From NCBI GenBank assembly GCA_963931925.1, contig OZ007574.1:32623961-32687960 (forward strand): DNA of 64,000 bases, given 5' to 3'. The position numbers and the translations under genes were made by a program. Origin of the DNA: Onchidella celtica (taxonomy: Eukaryota; Mollusca; Gastropoda; Systellommatophora; Onchidiidae). The notes under the pieces were generated by a model, which saw only the letters and a program-made list of their open reading frames with translations, ran no database searches and was not told the origin of the DNA. Positions 4,089 to 26,734 of the stretch are shown one piece after another (the stretch's first letter is position 1; every line of letters begins with the position of its first letter).

Positions 4089-7000
4089 CGCCCGTGCAGA
4101 TGCGGGGCTCTCTTGTAGAAGAGGGACAGCAGAGAATACATCTGACGTGATACTGCGTGTCGTAAGAGGCGACTAAAGGTGCAAAGGTCCTGGTCTCCCG
4201 AGAAGAGCCAGTTGGCGGTGGGCCAACTACCCACCCTGTAAAAATAAACCAGTTACAGAAACACAAGCAAATACTTCAAATCAGTCTTTTATCTTGGGAG
4301 AAGGGGGAGCATCTGCACCTGTAGATTCAATGAAGGACAATGGACAAAGCCGAAAGGACGCCACTGGCCCGACTGCTCCTTCATCAAGCAAGTCACTCCG
4401 GATTGCGTCGTGGAATGTCCGCTCCATGTATGAAGCAGGAAAGAGTGCCCAGGTTACAATGGAGATGAGGCGATACAGACTGCACATACTTGGAGTTAGC
4501 GAGACCCGCTGGATACAGTCCGGACTGAAACAACTTAATACTGGGGAAAAGATTTTGTATTCTGGAAGGGAGGACAAAAAGCATACAGAAGGAGTAGCGA
4601 TCATCTTGAGCAAGCACGCCCAGAGGTCACTGAGGGGATGGGAACCCTATGGAAGGAGAATTATATTGGCATCATTTACTACTAAGAACAAGAACATCAA
4701 CATGAACATTGTGCAGATATACGCCCCAACAAATGAAGCAACCGATGAGGACAAGGACGACTTCTACAACCAGCTTCAGGAAATAGTTGACACATTGCCA
4801 AGAAAAGATGTGAACATTATAATGGGAGATGCCAATGCCAAGATAGGACAGGACAATACAGGGTATGAGGACATTATGGGGTGCAATGGTTTAGGACAAA
4901 TGAATGAGAATGGAGAGCGGTTTGCAAGTTTCTGCGCATTTAACAGCTATGTGATTGGAGGTTCAGTATTCCCACACAAGAGGATCCATAAGGCCACTTG
5001 GATTTCACCGGATGGAGTAACTGAAAATCAGATTGACCACTTTTGCATCACCCGACGATTCAGACGTTCACTAGAGGATGTCATAGTACAGAGAGGAGCA
5101 GATGTTGGATCTGACCATCACATGCTGCTGGCAAGACTCAAACTCCGCCTCAAGAAACAAGGTACCAGAGCAGGAACAAAGAGGAGAAAGTTTCAAGTGA
5201 GCCTTCTGGATGGAGACAAGAAGGAAGAGTTCCAGCTGACACTGAGGAATAGATTCAAACCCCTTGTTGACCTCGAAGAGACAGTAGATTTGGAGACTCA
5301 CTGGGCTAAGGTAAAAGGAGTATTTACATCGACATGTCAGGATGTTATTGGGGAAAAGAAAGTGGAACACAAGGAATGGATCAGTCAAAAATCACTGGAC
5401 TTGATAAGGATAAGAAGAGACCTAAAAGAACGGGTAAATGCAAGTCGTACAAGAAGCTCAAGAGTTGGTAACCAGGAAGAGTACCGAGCATCAGCTAAAG
5501 AGGTCAAAAAATCAATTAAAAAAGACAAAGAGGAGTTCATAGGAATGTTAGCAGAGAAAGCAGAGAAGGCAGCAACAGGAGGACACATGAGGATCCTCTA
5601 CCAGACTACAAAGACTCTTGCTGGAAAATATGGAAAACCTGAAGTTCCTGTCAAGGATTACAACAGGAAGGCTATTTTTGGAAAGGAAGCTCAGGCAAAA
5701 AGATGGATAGAACATTTTAACAGCCTCTTGAACAGACCTCCACCAAGCAACCCACCCGACATTCTACCCGCAAGAAATGATTTACCGATCAGTTGCGACC
5801 CTCCGACTAAAGCAGAGATTAATGATGCCATAAAGCAGTTAAATCGAGGCAAGGCAGCTGGACCAGACCAGATCCCACCAGAGGCGCTGAAGGCAGATGC
5901 TGCTGGGGCTGCAGAGGGTCTGCACTCACTATTCTCGAGGATTTGGATCGGAGGCAAGTTTCCAAAGGACTGGAAGGAAGGACACCTCGTGAAGCTCCCA
6001 AAAAAAGGGGACCTCAGCAATTGTAGTAACTACAGAGGAATCACACTTCTCTCCATCCCAGGAAAGGTTTTCAATCGGATTATTCTCAAGCGAATACAGA
6101 ATGCAACAGACCAAAAACTTCGCGAGGAGCAAGCTGGTTTCAGGAGTAATCGATCAACCACCGACCAGATCGCCACGCTGAGAATCATAGTAGAGCAGTC
6201 GCTAGAGTGGAACTCCCAACTGATAGTGAACTTCCTTGACTACGAGAAGGCCTTTGATAGCATCGATAGAGAAACACTGTGGAGAATATTGAGACATTAT
6301 GGAATCCCAGAGAAGATGGTGAATCTTATCAAGAGCATGTACGAGGGGACAAGTTGCAGAGTCGTACATGATGGTGAGCTTACTGACAGCTTTGATATCA
6401 AGACTGGTGTTAGGCAGGGTTGTTTGCTGTCCCCATTTCTGTTTATCCTGGTGATTGATTGGCTTATGAAAGAAACCACCAGTGGAGGAAGAAATGGCAT
6501 ACAATGGACCCCATGGACACAGCTGGACGATCTAGATTTTGCAGATGACTTGGCACTATTGTCGCACACACACGACCAGATGCAAGCAAAGACTACAGCT
6601 CTAAACAAAATTTCAGAATCTATTGGATTGAGGATACATCCCGCGAAGTCGAAGGTCCTAAAAATTGTTGCACCCCTAAGCGAACAAGTCACAGTAGGAG
6701 ATCAACCACTGGAAGATGTAGAGTCCTTCTGCTATCTTGGTAGTATCATTGACAATAAGGGAGGAACAGAGGCAGAAGTCAAAGCACGAATTGGAAAGGC
6801 ACAGGCAGCTTTCACATCCTTAAGCAAGATTTGGAGAACCAAGGATATATCTCTAAAAACAAAGCTGAGGATATTCAACTCGAACGTGAAGTCAGTCCTG
6901 TTGTATGGATGTGAGACTTGGAATGCGTCCCAGGCCTGCATAAAGAGAATCCAAGTTTTCATCAACAGATGTTTGAGGAAGCTACTTAAGATCAGATGGA

Positions 7001-7325
7001 CAGACAAGGTCAGCAATGAAATTGTATGGAAAAGAACAAGACAGAACCCAGTCAGAGAGGAAATTGGTAGGAGGCGATGGAGATGGATCGGCCACACTCT
7101 CAGGAGGCCAGGAAACAGCATCACGAAGAAGGTATTGGACTGGAATCCCCAGGGCAAGAGATCAAGAGGAAGGCCGCGCGGAACGTGGAGAAGAGCCAGA
7201 GAAAATGATGTGCAACGAAGCGGAAAGACTTGGAATAATGTAAAGAGGCTGGCCCATGATAGAGAGGGATGGAAGGTGTTTGTTGGTGGCCTATACCCTG
7301 ATCCAGGGTGAGAAAGGCAATGATG
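4089..7325 (+). mobile_element. Full-length RTE-like non-LTR retrotransposon (LINE-1 of this window)
   Basis: The 3237-bp element is flanked by a perfect 12-bp direct repeat, ACGTCACATTTC, at 4077-4088 and 7326-7337, which I read as its target-site duplication. It has a 5' leader of about 240 bp containing short hairpins and the stretch CGTAAGAGGCGACTAA (4161-4176), which I recall from 5' regions of RTE-type elements. One ORF fills nearly all of the rest, and only 14 bp separate its stop from the 3' end, which finishes in ATGATG rather than poly(A). A single endonuclease-RT ORF, short 3' UTR and trinucleotide-like 3' end fit the RTE group. The clade assignment is inference; integrity and duplication are seen directly. 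Confidence 0.9.
4330..7311 (+). CDS. Endonuclease-reverse transcriptase of RTE-like LINE
   Basis: An uninterrupted frame encodes an AP-endonuclease followed by a reverse transcriptase that would nick target DNA and copy the element RNA at the nick. The frame is open from 4177, but the first in-frame ATG is at 4330 (an upstream TTG lies at 4294). Numbering from 4294, the endonuclease shows ASWNVRSMYEAGK (near 39), GVSETRW, YAPTNEAT, MGDANAKIG (177-185) and SDHH (273-276). RT motifs include NYRGITLLSIPGK, EEQAGFRSNRSTTDQI, DYEKAFDSIDRETLW, GVRQGCLLSPFLF and the catalytic FADD (749-752). A basic tail contains RRRWRWIGHTLRRP and SRGRPRGTWRR. No separate ORF1 is present. Such ORFs are often mislabelled 'craniofacial development protein 2-like' after the endonuclease domain. 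No stop or frameshift is seen, so a recently active copy is plausible. Confidence 0.93.
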   Translation: MKDNGQSRKDATGPTAPSSSKSLRIASWNVRSMYEAGKSAQVTMEMRRYRLHILGVSETRWIQSGLKQLNTGEKILYSGREDKKHTEGVAIILSKHAQRSLRGWEPYGRRIILASFTTKNKNINMNIVQIYAPTNEATDEDKDDFYNQLQEIVDTLPRKDVNIIMGDANAKIGQDNTGYEDIMGCNGLGQMNENGERFASFCAFNSYVIGGSVFPHKRIHKATWISPDGVTENQIDHFCITRRFRRSLEDVIVQRGADVGSDHHMLLARLKLRLKKQGTRAGTKRRKFQVSLLDGDKKEEFQLTLRNRFKPLVDLEETVDLETHWAKVKGVFTSTCQDVIGEKKVEHKEWISQKSLDLIRIRRDLKERVNASRTRSSRVGNQEEYRASAKEVKKSIKKDKEEFIGMLAEKAEKAATGGHMRILYQTTKTLAGKYGKPEVPVKDYNRKAIFGKEAQAKRWIEHFNSLLNRPPPSNPPDILPARNDLPISCDPPTKAEINDAIKQLNRGKAAGPDQIPPEALKADAAGAAEGLHSLFSRIWIGGKFPKDWKEGHLVKLPKKGDLSNCSNYRGITLLSIPGKVFNRIILKRIQNATDQKLREEQAGFRSNRSTTDQIATLRIIVEQSLEWNSQLIVNFLDYEKAFDSIDRETLWRILRHYGIPEKMVNLIKSMYEGTSCRVVHDGELTDSFDIKTGVRQGCLLSPFLFILVIDWLMKETTSGGRNGIQWTPWTQLDDLDFADDLALLSHTHDQMQAKTTALNKISESIGLRIHPAKSKVLKIVAPLSEQVTVGDQPLEDVESFCYLGSIIDNKGGTEAEVKARIGKAQAAFTSLSKIWRTKDISLKTKLRIFNSNVKSVLLYGCETWNASQACIKRIQVFINRCLRKLLKIRWTDKVSNEIVWKRTRQNPVREEIGRRRWRWIGHTLRRPGNSITKKVLDWNPQGKRSRGRPRGTWRRARENDVQRSGKTWNNVKRLAHDREGWKVFVGGLYPDPG

Positions 7326-10799: not shown

Positions 10800-13700
10800 C
10801 TACTACTATTTCCTGTTGCACCCACTGGTGCTTAGGGCAGCAACAAAGGATCTCCAGCCCTGTCTGTCCTGGGCCATCTTTGCGAGAGTTCCCCATGAGT
10901 GATTGAAGGATTTCATCTCTGCCTCGATTGTTCTCCGCCAGGTTGCCTTGGGTCTGCCTCGCTTGCGCCGTCCCTCCGGTGTCCACTGAAGTGCTGTTTT
11001 GGTTATAGAATTTGCTTCCTTTCGCAGCACGTGTCCAAGCCATCTCCATCGTCTCTTCGTGATGATGTTGGCTATTTCTTCTTGCTTGCATCGCCTTAGT
11101 AGTTCCTGATTAGAAATCTTGTTTGGCCAAAAGATGCGGAGAATCCTACGAAGACATGTGGTGTGGAAGGAAGACAACTTGGCGAGGTCACCTTCTGTCA
11201 TTCGCCAACACTCTGATCCATACAGGAGTGTGGATAGGACACAGCTTTGGTACAGTCTGATCTTGGTGTTGATGCCGTATTGTGTCGATTTCCAGATGTT
11301 GCTCATACTTTGAAAGACAGCCCTTGCATTTCCCAGCCTACTTTGGATGTCCTCCTTTGTGCCACCCTCTGGTCTGATAATGCTACCAAGGTATTTAAAT
11401 TTGTCCGTCGTGGTGAGGTTCTTGTCATCTACTTGCACTGGTGCTGGAGTGTCTACATTTAGGGTCATAATCTCTGTCTTCTTCTGGCTAATCCGAAGGC
11501 CTACTTTGCATCCAAAATTATGTAGACTCTGCGTCTTATCTTGCATGTGTTGGTGACTATGTGACAATAGCGCAAGGTCATCCACAAAGTCCAAATCCTC
11601 TAGGTTGTCGAAGAGTGTCCATCTGATGCCTCTTGGTGCATCCTCTGTAGTTTTCCGCATAATCCAGTCGATTACGAGGTTAAACAAAATTGTTGACACC
11701 ACACATCCTTGCCGTACACCAGTTTTCACTTCAAAGGATGCATCACTGTTTCCGACACTGCAACTGAAGTTCTTGTAAAAGCTTTTGATGAGTTCAACAA
11801 GCTTGCTGGGAATCCCATAGTGCCGAAGAATGCGCCATATACTCTCTCTGTGGATGCTGTCGAAGGCCTTTTCGAAGTCAACGAAGTTCACATAGAGCTG
11901 CCTTTGCCATTCTGAACACTGTTCTATGATGTTTCGGAGTGTGAAGATCTGGTCAACGCATCCTTTCCCCTTTCGGAATCCGGCCTGTTCCTTTCTCAGT
12001 GTCTTGTCCACAGCATCTGACATACGTTGCACAATGATCTTGGCAAGGATTTTGCTGGGTATAGAAAGGAGAGTGATACCACGCCAGTTGTTGCAATCGC
12101 TGAGTGCTCCTTTCTTGGGTATTTTCACTTTTCTGCCTTCATTCCAGCTCTTTGGTACTGCTTCTGCTTCCCAGATAGCTGTGAACAGTGGCTGAAGGAT
12201 GGTGGCTGACTGATCCGGATCTGCTTTGAACAGTTCTGCAGTCAAGTTGTCTTTTCCTGGGGCTTTGCTGTTTTTTAGGCTCTTTATTGCTGCCACTATC
12301 TCTTCTTTCTTTGGTGGATCTATGTTGATGTCAAGGTCTTCAGCAGCATCTTGTATTATTATTCTATCTTCAGGTGGTGGCCGGTTTAGTAATTCCTGAA
12401 AGTGCTCTGTCCAGCGTGTATCCTGTTCTCGTTCTGTAGTCAGTAGTTTCCCATTCTTGTCTTTGATTGGAACACTTGGTCTTCCACCGTACTTGCCACA
12501 AATGCGCTTAGTGATCTTGTGGAGCTTACCCTGTTCTCCTCTTGCTGCTGCCTCCTCCGCATCTGCCGCTAGCTGTTCCATGGCTTCTCGTTTATCTTTC
12601 TTTACTAGTCTCTTCACTTTCTTATTTAACTCTGTGTAGCTATGTTGGTACCTCTCTTTCAGCCTTTCCGATTTCACTTGTAGGAGTTTCTTTTTCATGA
12701 CTTTCCTCTCCTCGATCACATCCCATGTTCTTTGTTGGATCCACTCCTTGCTTTTCCCTTTCTCATTAAATCCAAGGCAGGCTACACTGCTCTCTGTGTA
12801 CACTGTAGTTACTCTTTTCCACTCTGAATCGATTCCTCTTTCTTTAGGGTTGTTCTTATCAGACTCTCGTAGAGCCTGGAATCGGTTCTTGACTTGTATG
12901 TTGAAGGCATTTCTAACACTTGCATCTCTCAGTTTCTGAATATTAAGGTGTCTTTGCTTTGATGTCTTGATTCCGGTCTTGTTCAGTTTAATTTTGATAA
13001 GTGCTGCCACTAGATGGTGGTCGCTGGCTACGTCAGCTCCTCTTTTCACTTTCACATCTAGAAGGGATCGTCTCCACATACCGTTGATCATCAAATGGTC
13101 TATTTGGTTCTTGTCTCTTCCATTTGGAGAATTCCATGTGAGTTTGTGAATTTCTCTGTGTGTGAAAAGGGTCCCTCCGATGACTAAGTTGTTCAAGGCA
13201 CAAAAATCCACAAGCCTTTCTCCATTGTCATTCCTTGTTCCAGTTCCATGTTTTCCCATTACTCTTTCATAATTTATATCATCTTTACCTACCTTAGCAT
13301 TGAGGTCTCCCATGACAATGATGAGATCATGCCGTGGCGTCATGTCCATTTCCCCCTGGAGTTGTTCATAAAAGTCGTCTTTGTCTGTGTTGTCGTTTTC
13401 GTTGGTTGGTGCATAACATTGGATGACAGTGATGTTTGTGTGTCGTCCTTTCATCCTCATCCTCATCAGTCTGCTATTGACTGGTTTCCACTCCAACAAG
13501 CATTTGTCCAGTCCTTTCTTTAGGATGATGGCTACTCCTTCATGATGTTGGTCATCCTCTCTTCCAGAGTAGAGAACGGTTTCTCCAGTGGATGTTTTGA
13601 TCCTTCCAGATCCAGTCCATCTGCTCTCACTTACACCCAGGATGTGTAGGTTGTAGCGCCTCATCTCTGATGTTACTTGTGCTAACTTACCCGATTCATA

Positions 13701-14118
13701 CATTGTTCTAACATTCCAGTATCCAATCCTGGTCTTGGTTTTGGCGGTGTTCAGTTCCTCCTTCATCCTGCTAGCAGTTTCCTTTCGGCTTTCACTACTT
13801 GCATTCATACGAGTCGCGAGGTACTCAGAAGGTCCATCACATCCAGAATGTTGGTTTTTCCATGTTGCTGTTTCCGTAACGATTTTTGTTTCTCCAAGTA
13901 AGGTCACCCCAACAAGGATTTCAGGGTAGGGTTGTTAGCCCTACGCCCAACCCCCGAACCTGGAGGGCCGGTCTGTTCAATCTTGTCTGGTCCTTCCCCC
14001 ATGACCTGTCCAGCTTGCTTAAAGCTATCAGGGGCACGAGGCCTCCGCTGGCTTAGCTCCTGGGATCACTGGGACACGCAAGCCACTCCTCCACGTCAAG
14101 GCATGAACAATTGGAGCA
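10800..14118 (-). mobile_element. Full-length RTE-like non-LTR retrotransposon (LINE-2 of this window)
   Basis: The 3319-bp element, read on the minus strand, is flanked by a perfect 14-bp direct repeat, GACTGCGTTGTCTA, at 10786-10799 and 14119-14132. The sense-strand 3' end finishes in TAG repeats (about four units) without poly(A). The 5' leader of about 210 bp includes a stem-loop made of GTAGGG and CCCTAC (13926-13944) just upstream of the ORF. Structure, leader length and trinucleotide 3' end parallel the LINE at 4089-7325, but the two proteins differ widely, so these are different families. The insertion lies upstream of, and in the same orientation as, the thioesterase-like exons. Confidence 0.9.
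10806..13907 (-). CDS. Endonuclease-reverse transcriptase of RTE-like LINE, FVDD variant
   Basis: A continuous frame of 1033 codons begins at a GTG (13907); the first ATG is codon 34 (13808). The endonuclease contains GYWNVRTMYESGKLAQ, GVSESRW, CYAPTNEND, VMGDLNAKVG, NQIDHL and SDHH. RT motifs include NWRGITLLSIPSK, KEQAGFRKGKGCVDQIFTLR, DFEKAFDSIHRESIW and GVRQGCVVSTILF. The catalytic box reads FVDD (774-777) where the other LINE has FADD; both Asp residues are kept. The tail has RRWRWLGHVLRKEANSIT and RKRGRPKATWRR. The stop lies only a few bases before the TAG-repeat 3' end. No disabling change is seen, and the perfect target duplication suggests a young copy. Confidence 0.92.
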   Translation of the reverse strand: MTLLGETKIVTETATWKNQHSGCDGPSEYLATRMNASSESRKETASRMKEELNTAKTKTRIGYWNVRTMYESGKLAQVTSEMRRYNLHILGVSESRWTGSGRIKTSTGETVLYSGREDDQHHEGVAIILKKGLDKCLLEWKPVNSRLMRMRMKGRHTNITVIQCYAPTNENDNTDKDDFYEQLQGEMDMTPRHDLIIVMGDLNAKVGKDDINYERVMGKHGTGTRNDNGERLVDFCALNNLVIGGTLFTHREIHKLTWNSPNGRDKNQIDHLMINGMWRRSLLDVKVKRGADVASDHHLVAALIKIKLNKTGIKTSKQRHLNIQKLRDASVRNAFNIQVKNRFQALRESDKNNPKERGIDSEWKRVTTVYTESSVACLGFNEKGKSKEWIQQRTWDVIEERKVMKKKLLQVKSERLKERYQHSYTELNKKVKRLVKKDKREAMEQLAADAEEAAARGEQGKLHKITKRICGKYGGRPSVPIKDKNGKLLTTEREQDTRWTEHFQELLNRPPPEDRIIIQDAAEDLDINIDPPKKEEIVAAIKSLKNSKAPGKDNLTAELFKADPDQSATILQPLFTAIWEAEAVPKSWNEGRKVKIPKKGALSDCNNWRGITLLSIPSKILAKIIVQRMSDAVDKTLRKEQAGFRKGKGCVDQIFTLRNIIEQCSEWQRQLYVNFVDFEKAFDSIHRESIWRILRHYGIPSKLVELIKSFYKNFSCSVGNSDASFEVKTGVRQGCVVSTILFNLVIDWIMRKTTEDAPRGIRWTLFDNLEDLDFVDDLALLSHSHQHMQDKTQSLHNFGCKVGLRISQKKTEIMTLNVDTPAPVQVDDKNLTTTDKFKYLGSIIRPEGGTKEDIQSRLGNARAVFQSMSNIWKSTQYGINTKIRLYQSCVLSTLLYGSECWRMTEGDLAKLSSFHTTCLRRILRIFWPNKISNQELLRRCKQEEIANIITKRRWRWLGHVLRKEANSITKTALQWTPEGRRKRGRPKATWRRTIEAEMKSFNHSWGTLAKMAQDRQGWRSFVAALSTSGCNRK

Positions 14119-14361: not shown

Positions 14362-16143
14362 TCATCCTGCGGGAGGCCACTATATTGGCCTTCTCGCGCA
14401 ACACATGAGACACGCGAGCAGAATATTGTGGCCTACATACTGCAAACCGGATCCTGCGGGAGGCCAATATATTGTACAGCAACGATGCTCCTCGTGTTTT
14501 GTTTATTCACTTACCGTGACTACAAGTGTATCCTTTTATCACGTTTTTTTTTTCGACACTATTTTCGCGTGTTTGTCTATCCTGTCATCCCTGCTACGTC
14601 TCACAAAATGGTATCGTCCGATTACATTTATTACAATGCAACTATTCGTAACTATTCATCATACTCATGTAACAGTACTGATGGTCTGAAGTTCAAACTG
14701 GGGAAAATCTTGGGGAAACTTTTACTTTGATACTGGTTGTCGTCTACATGTGAAATGAGAAGAAAGGGGCCATCTGCATATTTGAGAAACCGTTCTATGT
14801 CTGTAACAATGAATTCCAATGTAATACTACAGCATGCTGCATAAGGGCGTCTGTCGGTAGGTTTTTCATCAGGGAAAACTGGGAGAAAATGACCGACTTT
14901 GTTGTTGGACACTGTCTTTATTTGATGTGGTAATTAGAGAGATAATGTGTTGTTTTGATTAAACCGCCTTTTTTCAGTACATGTATGTACTCTACGAGTT
15001 GGAAATCAGATCTCTTGGTAAGAACTAACATCATAGTCGTGGAGGTGGGAGAAGGCAATGCCATGATACATGTGGTTAGTAAATTAAGCACCTGGCTTAA
15101 AAAATAATTTGTTCACCTGAATGGCCTGACTTAGGGACAAAACAAAAGCGCACAGGTCTTGAGAAAAGGATAAAACGTATGTTAAAGGGCATATAATTGC
15201 AGAAAATTCTTGATTATTGTTCTGTTTAACAATAGAACTTACTGCATATGTGTGTGCGCCTGAAGAAAGGTCCCAGTTGTCAGTACAGCTGCTTTTGAGC
15301 TAGGGCATGAAAAGGTCGAAAAAGTCGTGCCTAGTCGGAAATGTACTTCTAGCAGAAAACACAAGTTTAACCATTTCTAAATAGCATATGAAAAGGATTT
15401 TGGAATATTTTATGTTCAAATATTTTTTTATTAATTATTTGTACAACATGTGACTCTGCAGGAAGTAATATTGGAGTGATTGTTGCTAGGGACTAATTAC
15501 AAAGCTGTTATAGAGATAATACTGAGTAGTGTTCACTGCTCATCTATAGTTCACCGTGTAACATGCCACGATCCCCTAAAAACAGCCAAGTCGGAAGTTT
15601 TTTGGATCTTGTTAGGAGAGCACAGTATTTTACATACAAAGCTAGAGCTGAGCAGTGAACACAACTCAGTAGTTTCCCTATTTGCCCTTGTAATAAAACT
15701 ACGCTTCCCCAACAATATCCAAAAAGTCTGTCATGGGAGAGAGCTGTTAAAGCTGTTTTTCTCAAAAGTTTGTTTTTGCCCCCTGTCTTACAAAATGTGT
15801 CAAATCTTCAAAACTACTTCAGATATCAGAAAAATTTTAAAAGCAGCGTGTTCAGCATTGAATTTTCTAGAAGAATATGCCCTTATCTCAAAATCCAAAA
15901 TTTGAGACAACTGGGACCTTTCTCCAGGCACACACACATATTATCACAAGTACTTTATCCAAATATCACAGGGGTACACTTACGATTTATTCACCAGTAT
16001 TGTTGTTATTGCTTGCTCCTAAAGTAAACACGATACACGTGTTAAAAAGGACCTGATTGACCCGACCGCTGAGGTTATCGGCAACGCGCGAACGATCGGC
16101 TGAGTGGCCGCTGGCTATCCCCGCACAGGGCGTTACATGGCAC
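14362..16143 (+). repeat. Segmental direct repeat, copy A
   Basis: This stretch aligns, with divergence, to 16664-18417. Shared landmarks are a start with CGGGAGGCCA..TATATTGGCC, the stretch around TATCCTGTCATCCCTGCTA, the 'aaactgggagaaaatgaccga' stretch near 14880 and an end at CAGGGCGTTACATGG. No protein is evident in either copy. Copy A carries its own inverted-repeat insertion (15249-15938) that is absent from copy B. It is either an old segmental duplication or two copies of an unrecognised long repeat. Confidence 0.75.
15249..15938. mobile_element. Inverted-repeat element inserted in copy A of the duplication (TA duplication)
   Basis: Ends TGTGTGTGCGCCTGAAGAAA and, in reverse complement, TGTGTGTGTGCCTGGAGAAA form an inverted repeat of about 33 bp with few mismatches, flanked by TA on both sides (15247-15248, 15939-15940). 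The paralogous copy B runs straight from ..AACTTGTTAC to ATCACAAGTACTTTATCC without it, so it is a true insertion. The TA flank suggests the Tc1/mariner superfamily. No transposase is recognisable. Part of its interior (15605-15690) resembles 62945-63030. Confidence 0.75.
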
Positions 16144-16663: not shown

Positions 16664-18417
16664 CCGAAAGCCAATATATTGGCCTCCTTCACACAATATG
16701 GGAGGCACATGAAGCCACCATTTTGGCCTGTGGAAGTCCTGCAGGAGGCCATTTTTGTACACATAGCAACGCAGTGTCTCCTGTTTGTTTACTTGATGTC
16801 TCCCACTGATCTTTTTTTTTTATGTTGTTTTTTTGGTGCTAATTTCACTTGTTTATCTATCCTGCCACCCCTACTATTATATATAACAAAATGGTATCAT
16901 CCGATTACGCCGATTACAATGATATGCGGTAACTATTCATCATATCATGTCAGAGTGCTGACAGTCAAAGTTCGAACTGGGGGAAAATCTAGGGGAAACT
17001 TTTGACTTTGATGCTGGTTGTCCTTTAACCATTAACTTCCCACAGCCCTACCAGGAAAACTTCCATATTATCCCGGTGTAAGGGGAATAACTTTAAATTA
17101 TTTGTTACCTCACCTCACAAAAACAAGTGCAACTTGATTATTTATGGCCCAAAAAATCCAGAAAAATGTCCATTGTATAGAGAAATGGATTTCCTTTCAT
17201 TTGATATATGATTTGTCAACGTGTATGATGTTTTTGCTCGTGAAAAAAAATTAAACGAGCAAAAAAGTATACAAAAGTCATAAATTTCGTTCACGTTTCT
17301 TCCTTCAATTTGTGCATAAAGTTGTTTAATTCAGTTGGGCATGAAACTGCAAAACACAGTTCACTTTCGTCCAAATCGCCGTCTTCTTCATCAAATGAAG
17401 ACGATTGTTGACTTGGATGAGACTGAGTGAGTCAAACTTTGAAGAAAATGAAACGCCATAACTTCCAAAACTCGTAACTCGCTTAGTCTTGCTCGTATTT
17501 CGGTTCTGTAAACAGGAAAAGGAAGTCCAACTTTTTAAGATTCCAATACTGTGACTCCGTGCACGGAAGAATAACACAATTATAAGCGCTAAAACTACAA
17601 CTCCGCACAACCATAGTGTTAGCGGGCTATGGCCGGCGATACGGGACAAAATGGTTGCGGGCGATGGCGGGGGATACGGGAAGTTAGTGGTTAATGAAAT
17701 GATAAGAAAGGGGTCATCTGCTTGATAAGCCGCTCTATGTGTAATTCGATGTAATAATACTCGGAGGAATGCTGCATAAGGCCAATAAGGGTGTCTGGAC
17801 CAGCACATTTTTCATCTGGGAAAACTGGGAGAAAATGACCGATTTTGTTGTTGGTCGTTGTCTTTATTTGCTGTGGTAATTAGAAATATGTTGTGTTGCT
17901 TTGATTAAACTGCTTTTCAGTACATGTATGTACTCTACAAGCTGGAAATCAAATCTCTTGCTAAAGGTGTGCTAAGGAAACTAACATTATGGAAGTTGAA
18001 CCTTTAGATAGTGGGGGAGGGAGAAGGCATTGTCATGATACATAGTTAGTAGTAGTACATTAAGTGCCTGGCTCCAAAAATAATTTGTTCACCTCAATGG
18101 CCTAACATAGGGACAAAAAAGCATAGATCTCTTGGGAAAAGGTTAAAACCTGTTAAACTGCATGTAAATGCACACAATTCTTGATTACGGGCCGTCTATT
18201 TAACATCAGAACTTGTTACATCTCATCACAAGTACTTTATCCAAATATCGTAGCGGTTACTTAGGCTACAATTTATCCACCATTATTGTTGTTACTGCGT
18301 CCTAAAGTAAACAAATACATGTGTTCAAAAAGACCTGACTGACCCGACTGCCAAGGTTTTCGGCAACATGTGAATGATCGGCTGACTGGCCACTGACTTA
18401 CACAGGGCGTTACATGG
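16664..18417 (+). repeat. Segmental direct repeat, copy B
   Basis: Diverged second copy of 14362-16143, starting with CCCGAAAGCCAATATATTGG and ending in CAGGGCGTTACATGG. It lacks the insertion at 15249-15938 but contains a different one at 17029-17690, which is missing from copy A. No coding function recognised. Confidence 0.75.
17029..17690. mobile_element. piggyBac-like non-autonomous element (TTAA duplication) in copy B
   Basis: The 662-bp segment starts CCATTAACTTCCC and ends, in reverse complement, CCACTAACTTCCC. TTAA flanks both ends (17025-17028 and 17691-17694), the duplication typical of piggyBac transposons, whose ends start with CC. Duplication copy A has no such insert at the matching position. 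No transposase frame is seen, so movement would need an enzyme supplied in trans. Confidence 0.7.
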
Positions 18418-21690: not shown

Positions 21691-21835
21691 ACAACAAGGG
21701 CCAGCAACCTTTTTGCCTGTGCAGGCCTGATTGCAATACATGAGTGGATGTTGGGCCAGATAAATGCCACTAAAAAAAAAACAAACAAACTTAAAAGCAT
21801 TTACATACATCTCATTATATTTTGCCATATAAATC

Positions 21836-21972
21836 TAAATGGCTACAGAGTCTTTGCTTTAAATTGAAATGGATTCGTTTAATAACAGCAATGAAAATAA
21901 ACAGTCTTCAAAGGGTTCTATAACGAAAGAGAAATACGAACAAGTACATACATAAGAAATGGTGATCCTCTA
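21836..21972 (-). repeat. 3' LTR of the outer LTR element
   Basis: On the minus strand it runs TAGAGGATCACC to CATTTA. It is preceded by the G-rich polypurine tract (21973-21997) and differs from the 5' LTR at three positions. It keeps the 14-nt segment (21891-21904) complementary to the presumed primer site. Confidence 0.9.
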
Positions 21973-22074
21973 TGCCCCCCCCCCCAAGTCTTTGAGAGGT
22001 ATAAATTTCAAAGACTGAAAATGAACGATCACGCATAATCACATAAATTATTTTAGGCATAAGAAGAATTTTGA

Positions 22075-22928
22075 TTATGTTAACATAGAACTAGAGCCAT
22101 GGAGATGGAACAATAACAACTTGTTGGTATCCATTTGGGTGGGTGGCCCGACTGGGTGACGTGACATAGCATCAGCAGCAGCATGGCGAATCCCTGGGAT
22201 GTGAGCTATTTGGAACCTGAATCTGAGAGTCTTTTCTTTCAAGTTCCGTAGGCGTGGGTTAGGAATGGCATCTAGGCTCCTGTCACCAAACACTTTGAGA
22301 AGTGGCTTGTGATCCACAACTATTGTCAAGTTAGGGCATCCAAGTACAAAATGACGTGTCTTCTCGAGGGCGTCTACCACTGCCAGTGCCTCTCCTTCTA
22401 TAGGCGCATATCTGGACTCAGCAGATGAGGTAAAGCGACTGCCAACCAATGTTATCTTCCATCCTGTACGAGTGTACGGCAGCAGAATGGTTTTGTAGAT
22501 GTGCATGCACAATGTTTTTGGAAAAGCCAGAAGCCAATACCTTCTTTGCTGTAATCTGTTGCAAGGCATGTTGGTGTGGCTTTATTGAATATCTCCACAC
22601 CATGTTTGATTTCTTCGATAATGATGTGCTTTGTCTCTTCAAATAGATCATCTATAGTGTTTGTCCAAGTGAATGGCGTATTTGGCTTTAGGAGGGAGTG
22701 GAATGGTTGCATTCTCTCAGCAGATGCAACTTGGTTCACTAACCCAAACCAGCTCCTGATGTCTGTCACGTTGCGCGGTTTGGGGAAATTCTTAATTGCC
22801 TCAAGTACTTGTGGGCATGGTCGAACGGAAGTGGGGGTGATATCAAACCCTGCAATGTAACAGTGTTCTTAGCGAATGTGAATTTGCTTGGGTTAAAGGT
22901 GATAGCGTTTTGGCCGCAAGTATCCAAC
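22075..22928 (-). pseudogene. Outer LTR element: end of reverse transcriptase, connection and RNase H (frameshifted)
   Basis: This part resumes the pol frame on the far side of the nested element. It encodes the RT C-terminal region (FNPSKFTFAKNTV, then a segment with RSWFGLVNQVA) and an RNase H of the Gypsy type with LATDYSKEGIGFWLFQK, APIEGEALAVVDALEKTRHF, VVDHKPLL and IAHIPGIRHAAADAMSRHPV. A frameshift near 22490 separates the first RNase H motif from the rest. The frame stops at 22075 just after RNase H; no integrase zinc finger or catalytic core follows. It is non-functional as it stands. Confidence 0.85.
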
Positions 22929-22933
22929 CATTC

Positions 22934-23101
22934 TAAATAACTTGAAAAGAAGTATTTGGTCGGTTGAGCAGACCTTTAATGATTTGACTCATACGTCACA
23001 ATGATGGAAGTCTGTGTAATACAAAATGACAATATGTGAACAATAACGTAACAATGTATCTATATAACTCATAATAATAACAATAGTAATATATTTCTCT
23101 A
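22934..23101 (-). repeat. 3' LTR of the nested gag-only element
   Basis: 168 bp, identical to 23934-24101. It follows the polypurine tract AAAGACTCGGGGGGCA on the minus strand. Identity of the two LTRs implies a recent insertion, because LTR pairs are identical at integration. Confidence 0.92.
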
Positions 23102-23247
23102 TGCCCCCCGAGTCTTTAATATGAGTGATGTTAATGGTTATTCATGAACGTTAAAGGCTTAAAGTAAACAAGACGTGAAGTTAATTAAATTTATAAGAAA
23201 GGAGAAGAATGAATAAAATGCAAGCAAAACTACATCTGGTGAAAGAA

Positions 23248-23790
23248 TCAAGTTTCCTTCTGTTTTGCGCTTGATCTGGTGATTCGTTTCCCTCCTGGAG
23301 GTACAGTAGTCTCTGTTTTTCCTTGTTTATTGTAGGATTGTAATCTGAGTATTGCTCTCGGCTCGTCTCGGTCCTGTCTCATGTTAGACAGTTCGACTCT
23401 GAGGACCATGATGTTTTCCTCCCTCACAGCTAACTTGCGGATAGCTTCGAGGACATCCTCTTCTGGCTTGTGGCTGAGTGAGCCGCCGTTTGACCGTGTC
23501 AGATCTCGTCGAAGATGTTTATCGCAGCACTCTAGTAGTTGAATGGCCACCTCCTCCCCAAAAATTTTTGTGGCGGTTTTGTACTCGTTCCATCTGGCTT
23601 TGAAGTAATTCCACGTCTCGGTGGTGCCACTGAGGGAAATGGTAGGTCGTTTGACCTTTTCCACTTTGGCAGTGGAATGAGACTCATGCTCTTTGCCGTG
23701 CAGTTGTAGCAGTACGACAGCCACATCGATGGGGTGTTCCTCAGGAGTTGTATAGGCACACCCTCTTATGGGACATGCTATCGATGGCAT
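23248..23790 (-). CDS. Gag-like protein of the nested LTR element
   Basis: The frame is open from 23853, but the first ATG is at 23790, giving about 180 residues. Near the N terminus is a Cys/His arrangement, CPIRGC followed about 20 residues later by HGKEH, resembling a small zinc-binding motif. A capsid-like helical region follows (ISLSGTTETWNYFKARWNEY, LLECCDKHLRRDLTRSN, IRKLAVREENIMVLRVEL). The same landmarks occur in the gag of the outer element (VKRPSISASGTSEEWAYFV, LLECCDDVLRRDLTRS). Soon after the DRDEP motif the sequence switches to a short basic tail and stops, so the C-terminal capsid part and nucleocapsid knuckles are missing. It would form or join the particle that packages element RNA. 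No stop interrupts it. Confidence 0.8.
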   Translation of the reverse strand: MPSIACPIRGCAYTTPEEHPIDVAVVLLQLHGKEHESHSTAKVEKVKRPTISLSGTTETWNYFKARWNEYKTATKIFGEEVAIQLLECCDKHLRRDLTRSNGGSLSHKPEEDVLEAIRKLAVREENIMVLRVELSNMRQDRDEPRAILRLQSYNKQGKTETTVPPGGKRITRSSAKQKET

Positions 23791-23919
23791 CCCTGACGGT
23801 CTTGGTCTGGGCGATGAGGAGGCAAATAAAAAAAATCTACAGGAACGGAGCAATCCGACGTAGAGCTGCTCGAGTGTGCAAGGACAGAATTAGGCTATTC
23901 CCTTCCACTGGGCATTGGA

Positions 23920-23934
23920 ACAGACTTCCATCAT
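23920..23934 (-). promoter_or_regulatory. Presumed self-primer binding site of the nested element
   Basis: On the minus strand this 15-mer, ATGATGGAAGTCTGT, directly follows the 5' LTR, where a primer binding site belongs. It is exactly complementary to the transcript segment made from 24001-24015 inside the LTR. No TGG start of a tRNA-type site is at this position. The layout matches self-priming as known for Tf1. Confidence 0.6.
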
Positions 23935-24101
23935 AAATAACTTGAAAAGAAGTATTTGGTCGGTTGAGCAGACCTTTAATGATTTGACTCATACGTCACA
24001 ATGATGGAAGTCTGTGTAATACAAAATGACAATATGTGAACAATAACGTAACAATGTATCTATATAACTCATAATAATAACAATAGTAATATATTTCTCT
24101 A
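23934..24101 (-). repeat. 5' LTR of the nested gag-only element
   Basis: 168 bp. On the minus strand it contains an AT-rich TATATAG stretch, then the segment ACAGACTTCCATCAT (24015-24001), which I propose as the transcript start, and an ATTAAA poly(A)-signal-like hexamer a few tens of bases later. Termini are TA..TA. Confidence 0.9.
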
Positions 24102-24106
24102 CATTC

Positions 24107-24533
24107 AGCAGCCTGAAAGAAGCTATCTTCTATGGTAGAAGACCACATTATGGTGTCGTCAACAACTTTTGTTTTGTTTTTAACGTCACTAACAAGTTCA
24201 TCAAATCCTCTCGTGTAAGCGTCTCCTGAGGCTATATATCCTTGAGGGCAGACACAATACCTACACCGACCCCATGGTGTGATAAAAGTGGTCAGGTGTC
24301 TGTCCTTCTGGTCAAGGGGAATGCTGTGGTAGCCATTCCAAGCGTCGAATGTTGTTTTCCGGGTGTTAGGGAGAACTATGCGAGCCTGGTGGAATGGTGA
24401 TTGGGTGTGGTGTGTCTCTCTGGTGGCGTGACGGTTCAGAGCCTGAAAGTCAACTGTGCGCCGTGGCTTGCCAGACTTTTTAGCGCATATGACCATGCGA
24501 TGACACCATGTTACCGGTGTGCCCACAAGGACA
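24107..24533 (-). pseudogene. Outer LTR element: reverse transcriptase, N-terminal part (frameshifted, interrupted)
   Basis: RT motifs include PVTWCHRMVICAKKSGKPRR, VDFQALNRHATRET, FDAWNGYHSIPLD, TFITPWGRCRYCVCPQGYIA and the catalytic VDD in TKVVDDTIMW. Upstream, a one-base frameshift at the GGGG near 24540 separates it from the protease frame. The frame is broken downstream at 24102 by the nested insertion. The order and motifs are those of Gypsy-type pol. Confidence 0.85.
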
Positions 24534-24540
24534 GATTCAA

Positions 24541-25210
24541 TTACCCCGAGTTGTAGACTTGATCCAAACCAGCTTTTACTTCATCTTGCCAGTGAACTGG
24601 TACTGGTATGGGGCTATGGTATGCCACAGGCTTGGCATCTGGGTCAATCATGAGTTTCATTTGAGGGCCTGACATCATGGGTAGGGGCTGATGTTCACAC
24701 ACATTAAATGTGCTGCTTTTGTAATGTTTCAACAGCCACTGTTCTAGTTTTTCCCTGTTTTCCTCTGTAGCGGGGAAGGGAAGGGATTTCGGAACAGCTG
24801 GGGGAGCCTGTCGTAGAGGGCATCTGCATTGATCAGTGGTGCCAGGATTGTCTTGATTTTCAATCTCCAAACTGGAGGTTGAGCCAATTGTGGGGAAGTT
24901 GGTAGACAGTAGACCTAGGGCAATGCACGCTTCCATGGATGAGAATATTTTTTCTGTTGACTCTGTAATGTACACTATTTGGCGGGTTGTGCATGGTTCT
25001 TTCCCTCTTTTGTAGCCGGTTATGCGGTGGAGAAGCGCGCCTATGATGCCGATGGGCTCTGTATTTGCTGCCTTCATCCTCATAGTAGTGGGAAGTAGAT
25101 GGCTCTTGGTCTGACCAAGGTGAAGCAACGTGGTACCGGCGAGGCAGGATTGGCATCCTGTGTCTGCCACAGCAGGTGACCTGACTGTTTTTGATGCACG
25201 CTCAAAGGTG
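24541..25210 (-). pseudogene. Outer LTR element: retroviral-type aspartic protease and linker to RT
   Basis: The frame contains VADTGCQSCLAG, the D-T-G active-site motif of retroelement proteases, followed by LLHRITGYKRG and the RT-proximal PLPMMSGPQMKLMIDPDA and PVHWQDEVKAGLDQVY. The enzyme would process Gag-Pol. An in-frame TGA at about 25217 separates it from the gag/knuckle frame, and a frameshift near 24540 separates it from RT, so this copy cannot make an intact polyprotein. Confidence 0.8.
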
Positions 25211-25218
25211 GGTTTGAT

Positions 25219-25620
25219 TCATAAGTCCACTGCATCTTCTGGGATGGTGGGTTGGGGGTCAGAGGGCCGTCTTTTCCACAAGTCTTGTATAGAGTCATAG
25301 ATGTGATGATCAAGGGAGATGGAGTCGGCCATGTGCTCTGAGGGTATGTCGTCATAGATTGTGCAAAAGGACTCGAATACTGCAGTCGCTGAATCGTTTT
25401 GTGGTTTCTTGGATTTCTTGCATACACTTTCAAAGTGGTGGAGTAAACCACATTTGGTACATGTGTGGTTGTAGGCTGGGCAGTGAGCCATTCGTTCTTG
25501 TTGTCTTCGGCCATGGCCAGTTTTGCCGCAATGGCCACATGGAGGAGTGTTAGGTTTCTTATCCGGTGGGCGGGTTTGAAACTTTCTCTTTTCATAGTCT
25601 GTATGTGCTGGTGGCATCAA
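25219..25620 (-). pseudogene. Outer LTR element: nucleocapsid zinc-knuckle region
   Basis: The frame encodes CGHCGKTGHGRRQQERMAHC and CTKCGLLHHFESVC, two Cys/His clusters typical of the nucleic-acid-binding end of Gag, followed by an acidic linker. It ends at an in-frame TGA after PEDAVDL; the protease continues in the same frame beyond it. It lies one frame away from the preceding capsid segment. Confidence 0.75.
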
Positions 25621-26365
25621 CTGCTAATGGCGCTGGAGACGGTTTGATGCGTCCAGCCGAGCGCTTCCCACTTTCTTTCGCTTCCATATATCGAATGGTC
25701 TCCTCGACCGTCATGTCCTGGTTAGCCTGTCCTAACACATCCAGGCGAATGTCATCATCTGCCAGGCCGACAATGATTGTGTCACTAACCATTTGGTCAC
25801 AGTAGCTGATCTGGGCACCACACCCTCAACCGACCGAGTATTGACAAATGCTGGCCCGTCCTTTTAATCGAGCCGAAAAAGCCCTTATTGGTTCATCCCT
25901 GTCTTGTTTCATCTGCTGCAGTTCAAGCCGTGCCACCATGACATTTTCCTGGCGCACTGCCAGGGACTTGATGAGCTGGAGGAATGTGGGCTCGTCGTTT
26001 GATGTAAGGGATTTGGAGCTTCGTGTGAGGTCTCTCCTGAGAACATCGTCACAGCACTCGAGTAGTTGAAATATGATGTCGGGGCCAGAGAGTTTAGTGG
26101 CCTGTTTGTAGTCGGCCCATCGTTGAACGAAGTAAGCCCACTCTTCGCTGGTACCCGAAGCAGATATTGACGGCCTCTTTACTTTTTCTGTCTTGGCCCC
26201 TGTGGCAAGGGGTGTGTGTGCAGTGACTGGATGAGCTGTACGCTCATGAAGATCCAACAACCGCACCAGGACCCCTGCAACTAGGGACGATGGCCATGAT
26301 TCTGTGCAACCGGGGGCAGGGCATTTGATCTCTGTGGACTGATGTGCGTTCTCTGGGTTTGACAT
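25592..26365 (-). pseudogene. Outer LTR element: gag capsid region with one in-frame stop
   Basis: Starts at an ATG (26365), 21 bp inside the 5' LTR boundary. The N terminus has CPAPGC and, about 20 residues on, HERTAH, a zinc-finger-like arrangement shared with the nested element. The capsid-like part follows (KRPSISASGTSEEWAYFVQR, LLECCDDVLRRDLTRSSK, RDEPIRAFSARLKGRASICQ). A TGA at about 25828 interrupts the frame; it resumes with MVSDTIIVGLADDDIRLDVL and ends at 25592. It is a decayed gag. Confidence 0.8.
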
Positions 26366-26371
26366 TCTGTT

Positions 26372-26385
26372 CTGTTTATTTTCAT
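26372..26385 (-). promoter_or_regulatory. Presumed self-primer binding site of the outer LTR element
   Basis: On the minus strand ATGAAAATAAACAG adjoins the 5' LTR end. It is exactly complementary to the transcript of LTR positions 26440-26453. Same position and arrangement as in the nested element, but a different sequence. Confidence 0.6.
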
Positions 26386-26521
26386 AAATGACTACAGAGT
26401 CTTTGCTTTAAATTGAAATGGATTCGTTTATTAACAGCAATGAAAATAAACAGTCTTCAAAGGGTTCTATAACGAAAGAGAAATACGAACAAGTACATAC
26501 ATAATAAATGGTGATCCTCTA
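26385..26521 (-). repeat. 5' LTR of the outer LTR element
   Basis: 137 bp, minus-strand TAGAGGATCACC to CATTTA. The presumed transcript start is CTGTTTATTTTCAT (26453-26440), followed within about 20 nt by AATAAA. It differs at three positions from the 3' LTR. Confidence 0.9.
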
Positions 26522-26734
26522 AAATCAGTGAGCAATGGCTAGGCATACCAGAACGACATTTGTTCTTAAGCTACCACTAGAAATGCTAAGATTGCAAGCC
26601 AATCAGGATCATGAAAATGTGAATCATCATCTTTTGTGCGTTTAAGGATCGTTCTTGGGCCAGACAAGCATAGCATCCTTAAATTTGCTTTTGCAGGCCG
26701 GTTAAAATCCCTGTAGGTTGCTGACCCCTGTTTG

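Follow-up and report, generated by a model that had tools for sequence, protein, structure and literature searches.

The window analysed here, a 64,000-nucleotide stretch of the genome of the gastropod Onchidella celtica (contig OZ007574.1, positions 32,623,961 to 32,687,960), contained two long terminal repeat (LTR) retrotransposons on the minus strand, one of them inserted within the reverse transcriptase (RT) of the other (Table 1). The two LTRs of the outer element differed at 3 sites over 137 bp, and those of the nested element were identical. Both copies are defective. The nested element splits the outer RT, and the outer frame stops at the RNase H near the 3′ LTR, which leaves no space for an integrase; the nested element is internally shortened to 1168 bp, and a related copy spans about 5.75 kb. 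Rfam models gave nothing at gathering score in positions 21700-26700, and ARAGORN found no tRNA within the 64 kb, both scans covering the window alone. Elsewhere in the window, frames of 1044 and 1042 aa (4177-7311, plus strand, and 10806-13934, minus strand) carried an endonuclease domain, RT, and DUF6451, and both appear to be open ORFs of non-LTR retrotransposons. At 14862-15142 and 17808-18118, about 2.95 kb apart, lay direct repeats of 110 and 66 nt with 88% identity.

Table 1. Features of the two window elements, self-primer segments (S) of the nine families, each given up to the inferred 3′ end of the primer, and loci with aberrant junctions
Feature	Positions	Strand	Sequence or remark
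Outer element (family F1)	21836..26521	(-)	LTR pair, target duplication AAATC/AAATC
Outer 5′ LTR	26385..26521	(-)	137 bp, TAGAG...ATTTA
Outer S (F1)	26441..26453	(-)	CTGTTTATTTTCA
Outer AATAAA	26427..26432	(-)	within outer 5′ LTR
Outer PBS	26372..26384	(-)	TGAAAATAAACAG, adjoins LTR directly
Outer RT	23996..24580	(-)	
Outer RNase H	22075..22581	(-)	
Outer polypurine tract side	21973..21995	(-)	G-run, then CA, adjoining 3′ LTR
Outer 3′ LTR	21836..21972	(-)	137 bp
Nested element (family F6)	22934..24101	(-)	LTR pair, target duplication CATTC/CATTC
Nested 5′ LTR	23934..24101	(-)	168 bp
Nested S (F6)	24002..24015	(-)	ACAGACTTCCATCA
Nested ATTAAA	23975..23980	(-)	within nested 5′ LTR
Nested PBS	23920..23933	(-)	TGATGGAAGTCTGT, adjoins LTR directly
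Nested polypurine tract side	23102..23124	(-)	G-run, then CA, adjoining 3′ LTR
Nested 3′ LTR	22934..23101	(-)	168 bp
F2 S			CTGTTTATTTCA
F3 S			TTTCTTCGATA
F4 S			CTATTTCATTCA
F5 S			AATAAACGACGATCA
F7 S			AGATCTCCATCA, 14 nt in L089 and L136
F8 S			GGCTTTCATCA
F9 S			ATTGAGTTGCGATCA
L091 locus (L091, L158, L182)	G000 C6:36911310-36911787		far end approximate
L156	G000 C5:62334478-62334757		280 bp, target duplication ATATG
L157	G000 C9, near 6021306-6021585		target duplication CAGTG

Each element carried a self-primer segment (S) in its 5′ LTR that was complementary to the primer binding site (PBS), defined here as the bases directly 3′ of that LTR. The original prediction had named two such pairs, and both proved exact: 23920-23934 with 24001-24015 in the nested element (second LTR copy, in the 3′ LTR, from 23001) and 26372-26385 with 26440-26453 in the outer element (second LTR copy, in the 3′ LTR, from 21891). 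Complements of the two PBS-side matches had no further plus-strand occurrence in the 64-kb window. The final base of each PBS-side match (23934 and 26385) is the last A of the LTR and is included in the pairing, so that the PBS proper comprises 14 nt in the nested element and 13 nt in the outer one. The matches sit where a PBS is expected, as had been predicted, with no gap between PBS and LTR end; the poly(A)-signal-like hexamers noted earlier are present in both 5′ LTRs, and a TGG start is absent from both PBSs.

A search of the genome (1.14 Gb, 43 contigs) with the outer RT yielded 10,177 first-look candidates, of which 150 were scored; all 150 matched, in groups of near 91, 80, 74, 67, and 57% identity. 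From these, 40 stretches were fetched at the expected position of the 5′ LTR. An uninterrupted S/PBS match of at least 10 nt adjoining the LTR end was found in 25 of the 40, and four others (L043, reread as L154; L045; L052; and L080) had both segments with a decayed pair, as is expected for old copies. Eight stretches were without a recognizable LTR end (L041, L075, L076, L077, L082, L084, L085, and L087); among the remainder, L057 was masked, and L073 and L074 stopped before the full PBS. Integrase matches in this genome were in places evenly spaced about 7.8 to 8.1 kb apart, three to seven per row (rows starting at G000 C13:23550441, C7:59369283, C1:118319426, and C2:485908), which suggests tandem arrays of another gypsy family.

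Nine families with the S/PBS arrangement and differing S sequences were distinguished, eight in this genome and one elsewhere (F9). Scans for relatives found none in a collection of viral contigs and one contig in a collection of genome contigs. F9 lies on contig QGON01000023.1, filed as a tubeworm-symbiont MAG and probably host annelid DNA, where integrase, one LTR, PBS, and gag follow in a row, and the LTR is thus single. Target duplications of 5 bp, present at both window elements, also flanked copies of F2, F4, F5, and F6. The PBS began with TGA in all families but one, where it began with TAT, and none of the nine PBSs started with TGG; F6 and F7 had TGG three bases into the PBS, and the other seven families had none in the first 12 bases. 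In several LTRs (F3 L042, F4 L048, F5 L051, F7 L055, F8 L070, and F9 L069), a T-run or pyrimidine-rich stretch with CAG at its end was located 0 to 20 nt upstream of S and might serve as an initiator or as a 3′ splice acceptor.

Pairing between S and PBS extended over 11 to 15 nt in all nine families with no gap to the LTR end, which was set by LTR pairs in F1, F2, F4, F5, and F6, by five 3′ LTR matches stopping at the same base in F3, and by inference in F7, F8, and F9. When S and PBS were compared between families, with one representative for each, none of the 72 combinations reached 10 nt, and the longest match was 7 nt. The original prediction had proposed that relatives be examined for co-variation of the two segments, and co-variation was what these comparisons revealed. 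Each of PBS positions 2 to 10 had at least two pair types across families, with the pair broken in none, and F1 and F2, the closest families, differed by one extra T in S that was matched by one extra A in the PBS. As a control for chance, the PBS 10-mer had a reverse complement in its own LTR in 9/9 families, compared with 0 of 1969 internal 10-mers taken 15 to 249 nt further in. Six stretches of other integrase-bearing elements of this genome (L110 to L115) contained no complementary pair of at least 11 nt within 500 nt, a weak control in that the LTR ends and PBSs of those stretches could not be fixed. In predicted folds of the leader, the S/PBS stem was present in all nine families with mean pair probabilities of 0.83 to 0.99, by a method that does not allow crossing duplexes.

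Variation among copies was concentrated at the edge of the match. In F2, a numerous and young family, the LTR end was missing from L117 and L127, and the other 42 of 44 stretches were readable; PBS positions 1 to 10 were invariant in all 42 copies, and position 11, the first base beyond the common 10-nt match, was A in 24, G in 10, C in 7, and T in 1. The other 89 columns (68 in the LTR and 21 in the PBS and leader) held 3 minor alleles in total. The two most frequent backgrounds (21 and 15 copies) each included copies with A, C, and G at position 11, and the changes have therefore recurred. Edge variation was also found at position 12 in F4 (A in two, G in two, and T in one of five copies, the T coming from the decayed L080), at position 13 in F7 (A in 12 and C in 2; 14 readable of 19 stretches), and at position 12 in F1 (A versus T between the window copy and L079). 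One of the two F7 copies with C, L089, has further differences deeper in. No variation was seen at the edge of the match in F5 (5 stretches) or F3 (7 ordinary copies of 8 stretches). The F2 hotspot is as would be expected if this base is written where a short RNA primer has its 5′ end: plus-strand strong-stop DNA would copy the primer up to its capped end, where RT would add or misread one base that is then fixed. Read as the primer end, the edge variation gives a primer length of 10 to 13 nt. Placed from the relatives, the primer 5′ ends of the window elements would lie at about 26451-26452 and 24013-24014, that is, 1 to 2 nt inside the transcript starts originally predicted (26453 and 24015).

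Several copies ended or were joined at the same place. The first 11 nt of the F6 PBS were common to 29 of 29 copies read; in L006, L091, and L101 the PBS match ended after 13, 11, and 12 nt, respectively, and was followed by other sequence. In L091, which is flanked by the target duplication AATAA, a complete LTR with 11 nt of PBS is followed by some 280 nt of other DNA and then by the terminal 23 nt of U5; in L006 the internal part of the element resumes after 173 nt, and the 3 kb fetched for L101 contained no second LTR. All three joints fall where plus-strand strong-stop DNA would end. Two F3 integrants, L156 and L157, start with an LTR and PBS and continue with the LTR in reverse complement, running from S back to LTR base 1, with perfect 113-nt arms in L156 and arms with differences in L157. 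The two are alike at 275 of 277 bases, a near identity that makes one shared origin possible: they may derive from a single event, and these short LTR hairpins are possibly a small non-autonomous family. The fold-back would arise from plus-strand strong-stop DNA whose PBS end annealed to S on the same strand and was extended, which would account for the joint, not for the double-stranded, two-ended form that was integrated. In a third integrant, L180, the one locus obtained when F2 was searched for fold-backs, 18 to 21 nt complementary to the end of U5 lie between the end of S (...TTTATTTCA) and the resumption of R, and the LTR is flanked by the target duplication AACTC; this joint is the expected product of synthesis primed by S. 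Integrated molecules with a polymerase-extended S/PBS joint and 5-bp target duplications thus numbered three. A search for the fold-back pattern in F6 gave 0 matches, and the sole F7 match, with one mismatch, was rejected as an ordinary LTR.

Compared to Pfam, the L069 frame contained RT, RNase H, integrase zinc finger, and integrase core, which is the Ty3/gypsy order, and L012 contained RT, RNase H, and zinc finger. A chromodomain was sought in five C-terminal frames (L059, L065, L066, L068, and L069) and not found at E values up to 0.1. Among the best 120 of 1646 database relatives, those with animal names were from Nematostella, Actinostola, Mizuhopecten, Batillaria, Aplysia, and Nucella, with 61 to 65% identity and 93 to 100% query coverage. 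The RT motif, commonly Y/F-x-DD, is CIDD or VVDD here and is conserved across the aligned relatives. The absent chromodomain, the TA...TA ends of the LTRs, and the RT motif suggest, and do not prove, a clade outside the chromoviruses.

Observed here were the matches, their exact position where the LTR ends, their co-variation, the one-base hotspot, and integrants of the fold-back kind; from these we infer, strongly though from sequence, that the elements prime themselves. It is very probable that they form a Ty3/gypsy clade that has no detectable chromodomain and starts reverse transcription by Tf1-like self-priming. The start of the RNA, the site of RNase H cleavage, and the succession of steps are deduced as follows. 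S would lie at the RNA 5′ end, or within 1 to 2 bases of it, and would fold back to the PBS adjoining the 5′ LTR. RNase H cleavage would fall 3′ of S, after ...TCA in eight families and ...ATA in F3, and RT would extend the freed primer of about 10 to 13 nt into U5, placing the first base opposite the last A of the LTR. Plus-strand strong-stop DNA would later copy the primer and rewrite the PBS from S in each cycle, a step that would keep S and PBS matched despite sequence drift.

Two other accounts of the complementarity concern the mechanism. A tRNA or tRNA fragment could be the primer, with the LTR match incidental; tRNA priming is usual among LTR elements, and TGG does occur three bases into the PBSs of F6 and F7. 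This is scarcely credible given that no PBS starts with TGG, that seven families lack it throughout the first 12 bases, and that every PBS matches its own LTR and none of those of the other families. The hairpin might instead be an RNA control structure for packaging, dimerization, or translation, such as retroviral leaders contain, and the stable fold predicted in 9/9 leaders is consistent with that role. That the hairpin has such a role in place of priming is nevertheless very unlikely: the match adjoins the LTR end in all families, exactly where synthesis is required to start, its far edge carries the one-base hotspot, and S/PBS joints extended by a polymerase were found.

A further alternative accepts self-priming and differs on kinship, and its likelihood therefore does not compete with those of the tRNA and control-structure accounts: the clade could descend from within the Tf1/sushi chromoviruses as a divergent branch, its chromodomain lost and its self-priming inherited. 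Self-priming is common to both, the primer length is close to the 11 nt reported for Tf1 in the cited text (PMC7175516), and the longer copies have a single long gag-pol frame of about 1590 to 1700 codons. Such an ancestry has a real but minor chance of being correct, opposed as it is by the lack of a chromodomain in 5/5 C-terminal frames at E values up to 0.1, the TA...TA LTR ends, and the CIDD or VVDD motif.

Self-priming itself is already known from the Tf1/sushi chromoviruses, and in the sources cited below the evidence consists of experiments on yeast Tf1 and of complementarity in relatives, mostly chromoviruses. We lean slightly toward a wider reading, in which an old Ty3/gypsy clade, present across animals and separate from the chromoviruses, would prime itself as a rule. 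Its copies would record the capped primer end as a one-base PBS hotspot and would occasionally insert fold-back strong-stop DNA, leaving short LTR hairpins between target duplications, so that priming events become legible in an assembled genome. A further animal lineage outside the chromoviruses would, if true, mean that self-priming had more than one origin or was frequently lost, a point relevant to the question of which mode of priming came first. With the position-11 hotspot and the fold-back integrants, primer ends and priming events could be read from assemblies alone for any young LTR family. Elements independent of tRNA would presumably also evade host controls directed at tRNA primer sites.

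Among open-licence papers, no description of self-priming in invertebrate gypsy elements was found, which does not prove its absence. The Mag, CsRn1, and Gmr1 elements, including novel lineages from tubeworms, resemble the present ones in being gypsy elements of invertebrate hosts (PMC8220671, as far as its cited passages go, which name no PBS type). Bivalve TRIM elements are similar in that a canonical PBS was not found and differ in that their authors, in the text cited, offer no clear mechanism and mention no LTR/PBS complementarity (PMC6934838). In non-seed plants, most Tcn1 elements have been predicted to prime themselves on the basis of LTR/PBS complementarity, as here, and so has the plant copia lineage TAR (PMC6317226), whereas one study did not find evidence of self-priming in the spike-moss element SM-Tcn1 (PMC2864245); on the accounts given in these sources, their hosts are plants and fungi, Tcn1 is a chromovirus, and TAR is a copia lineage. 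The fungal GalEa copia elements likewise have no tRNA PBS and carry an inverted repeat, the Conserved Hairpin Site, by the LTR end, but both hairpin arms are 3′ of the LTR, so that no primer would derive from the LTR, and the authors report in the cited passages that they saw no Tf1-like complement (PMC5445492). The closest comparison is with the Tf1/sushi chromoviruses of fungi and vertebrates, for which self-priming has been described (PMC6317226, PMC10085805, PMC4600332, PMC7175516). According to the portions of this literature cited, fission-yeast members carry a chromodomain (PMC10085805, PMC4600332, PMC7175516), which was not found in the present clade; Tf1/sushi LTRs end in CA, whereas the present LTRs run TA...TA; and their pretzel fold has two further duplexes beside the primer-PBS duplex, including a crossing duplex that the folding used here does not permit. 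The Tf1 primer is described as 11 nt long, cleaved between bases 11 and 12 (PMC7175516), and Tf1, Tf2, Tj1, and sushi-ichi, as they are presented in these sources, have, as the present elements would, a short primer and, immediately adjoining the 5′ LTR, a PBS that can pair with the 5′ end of the RNA.
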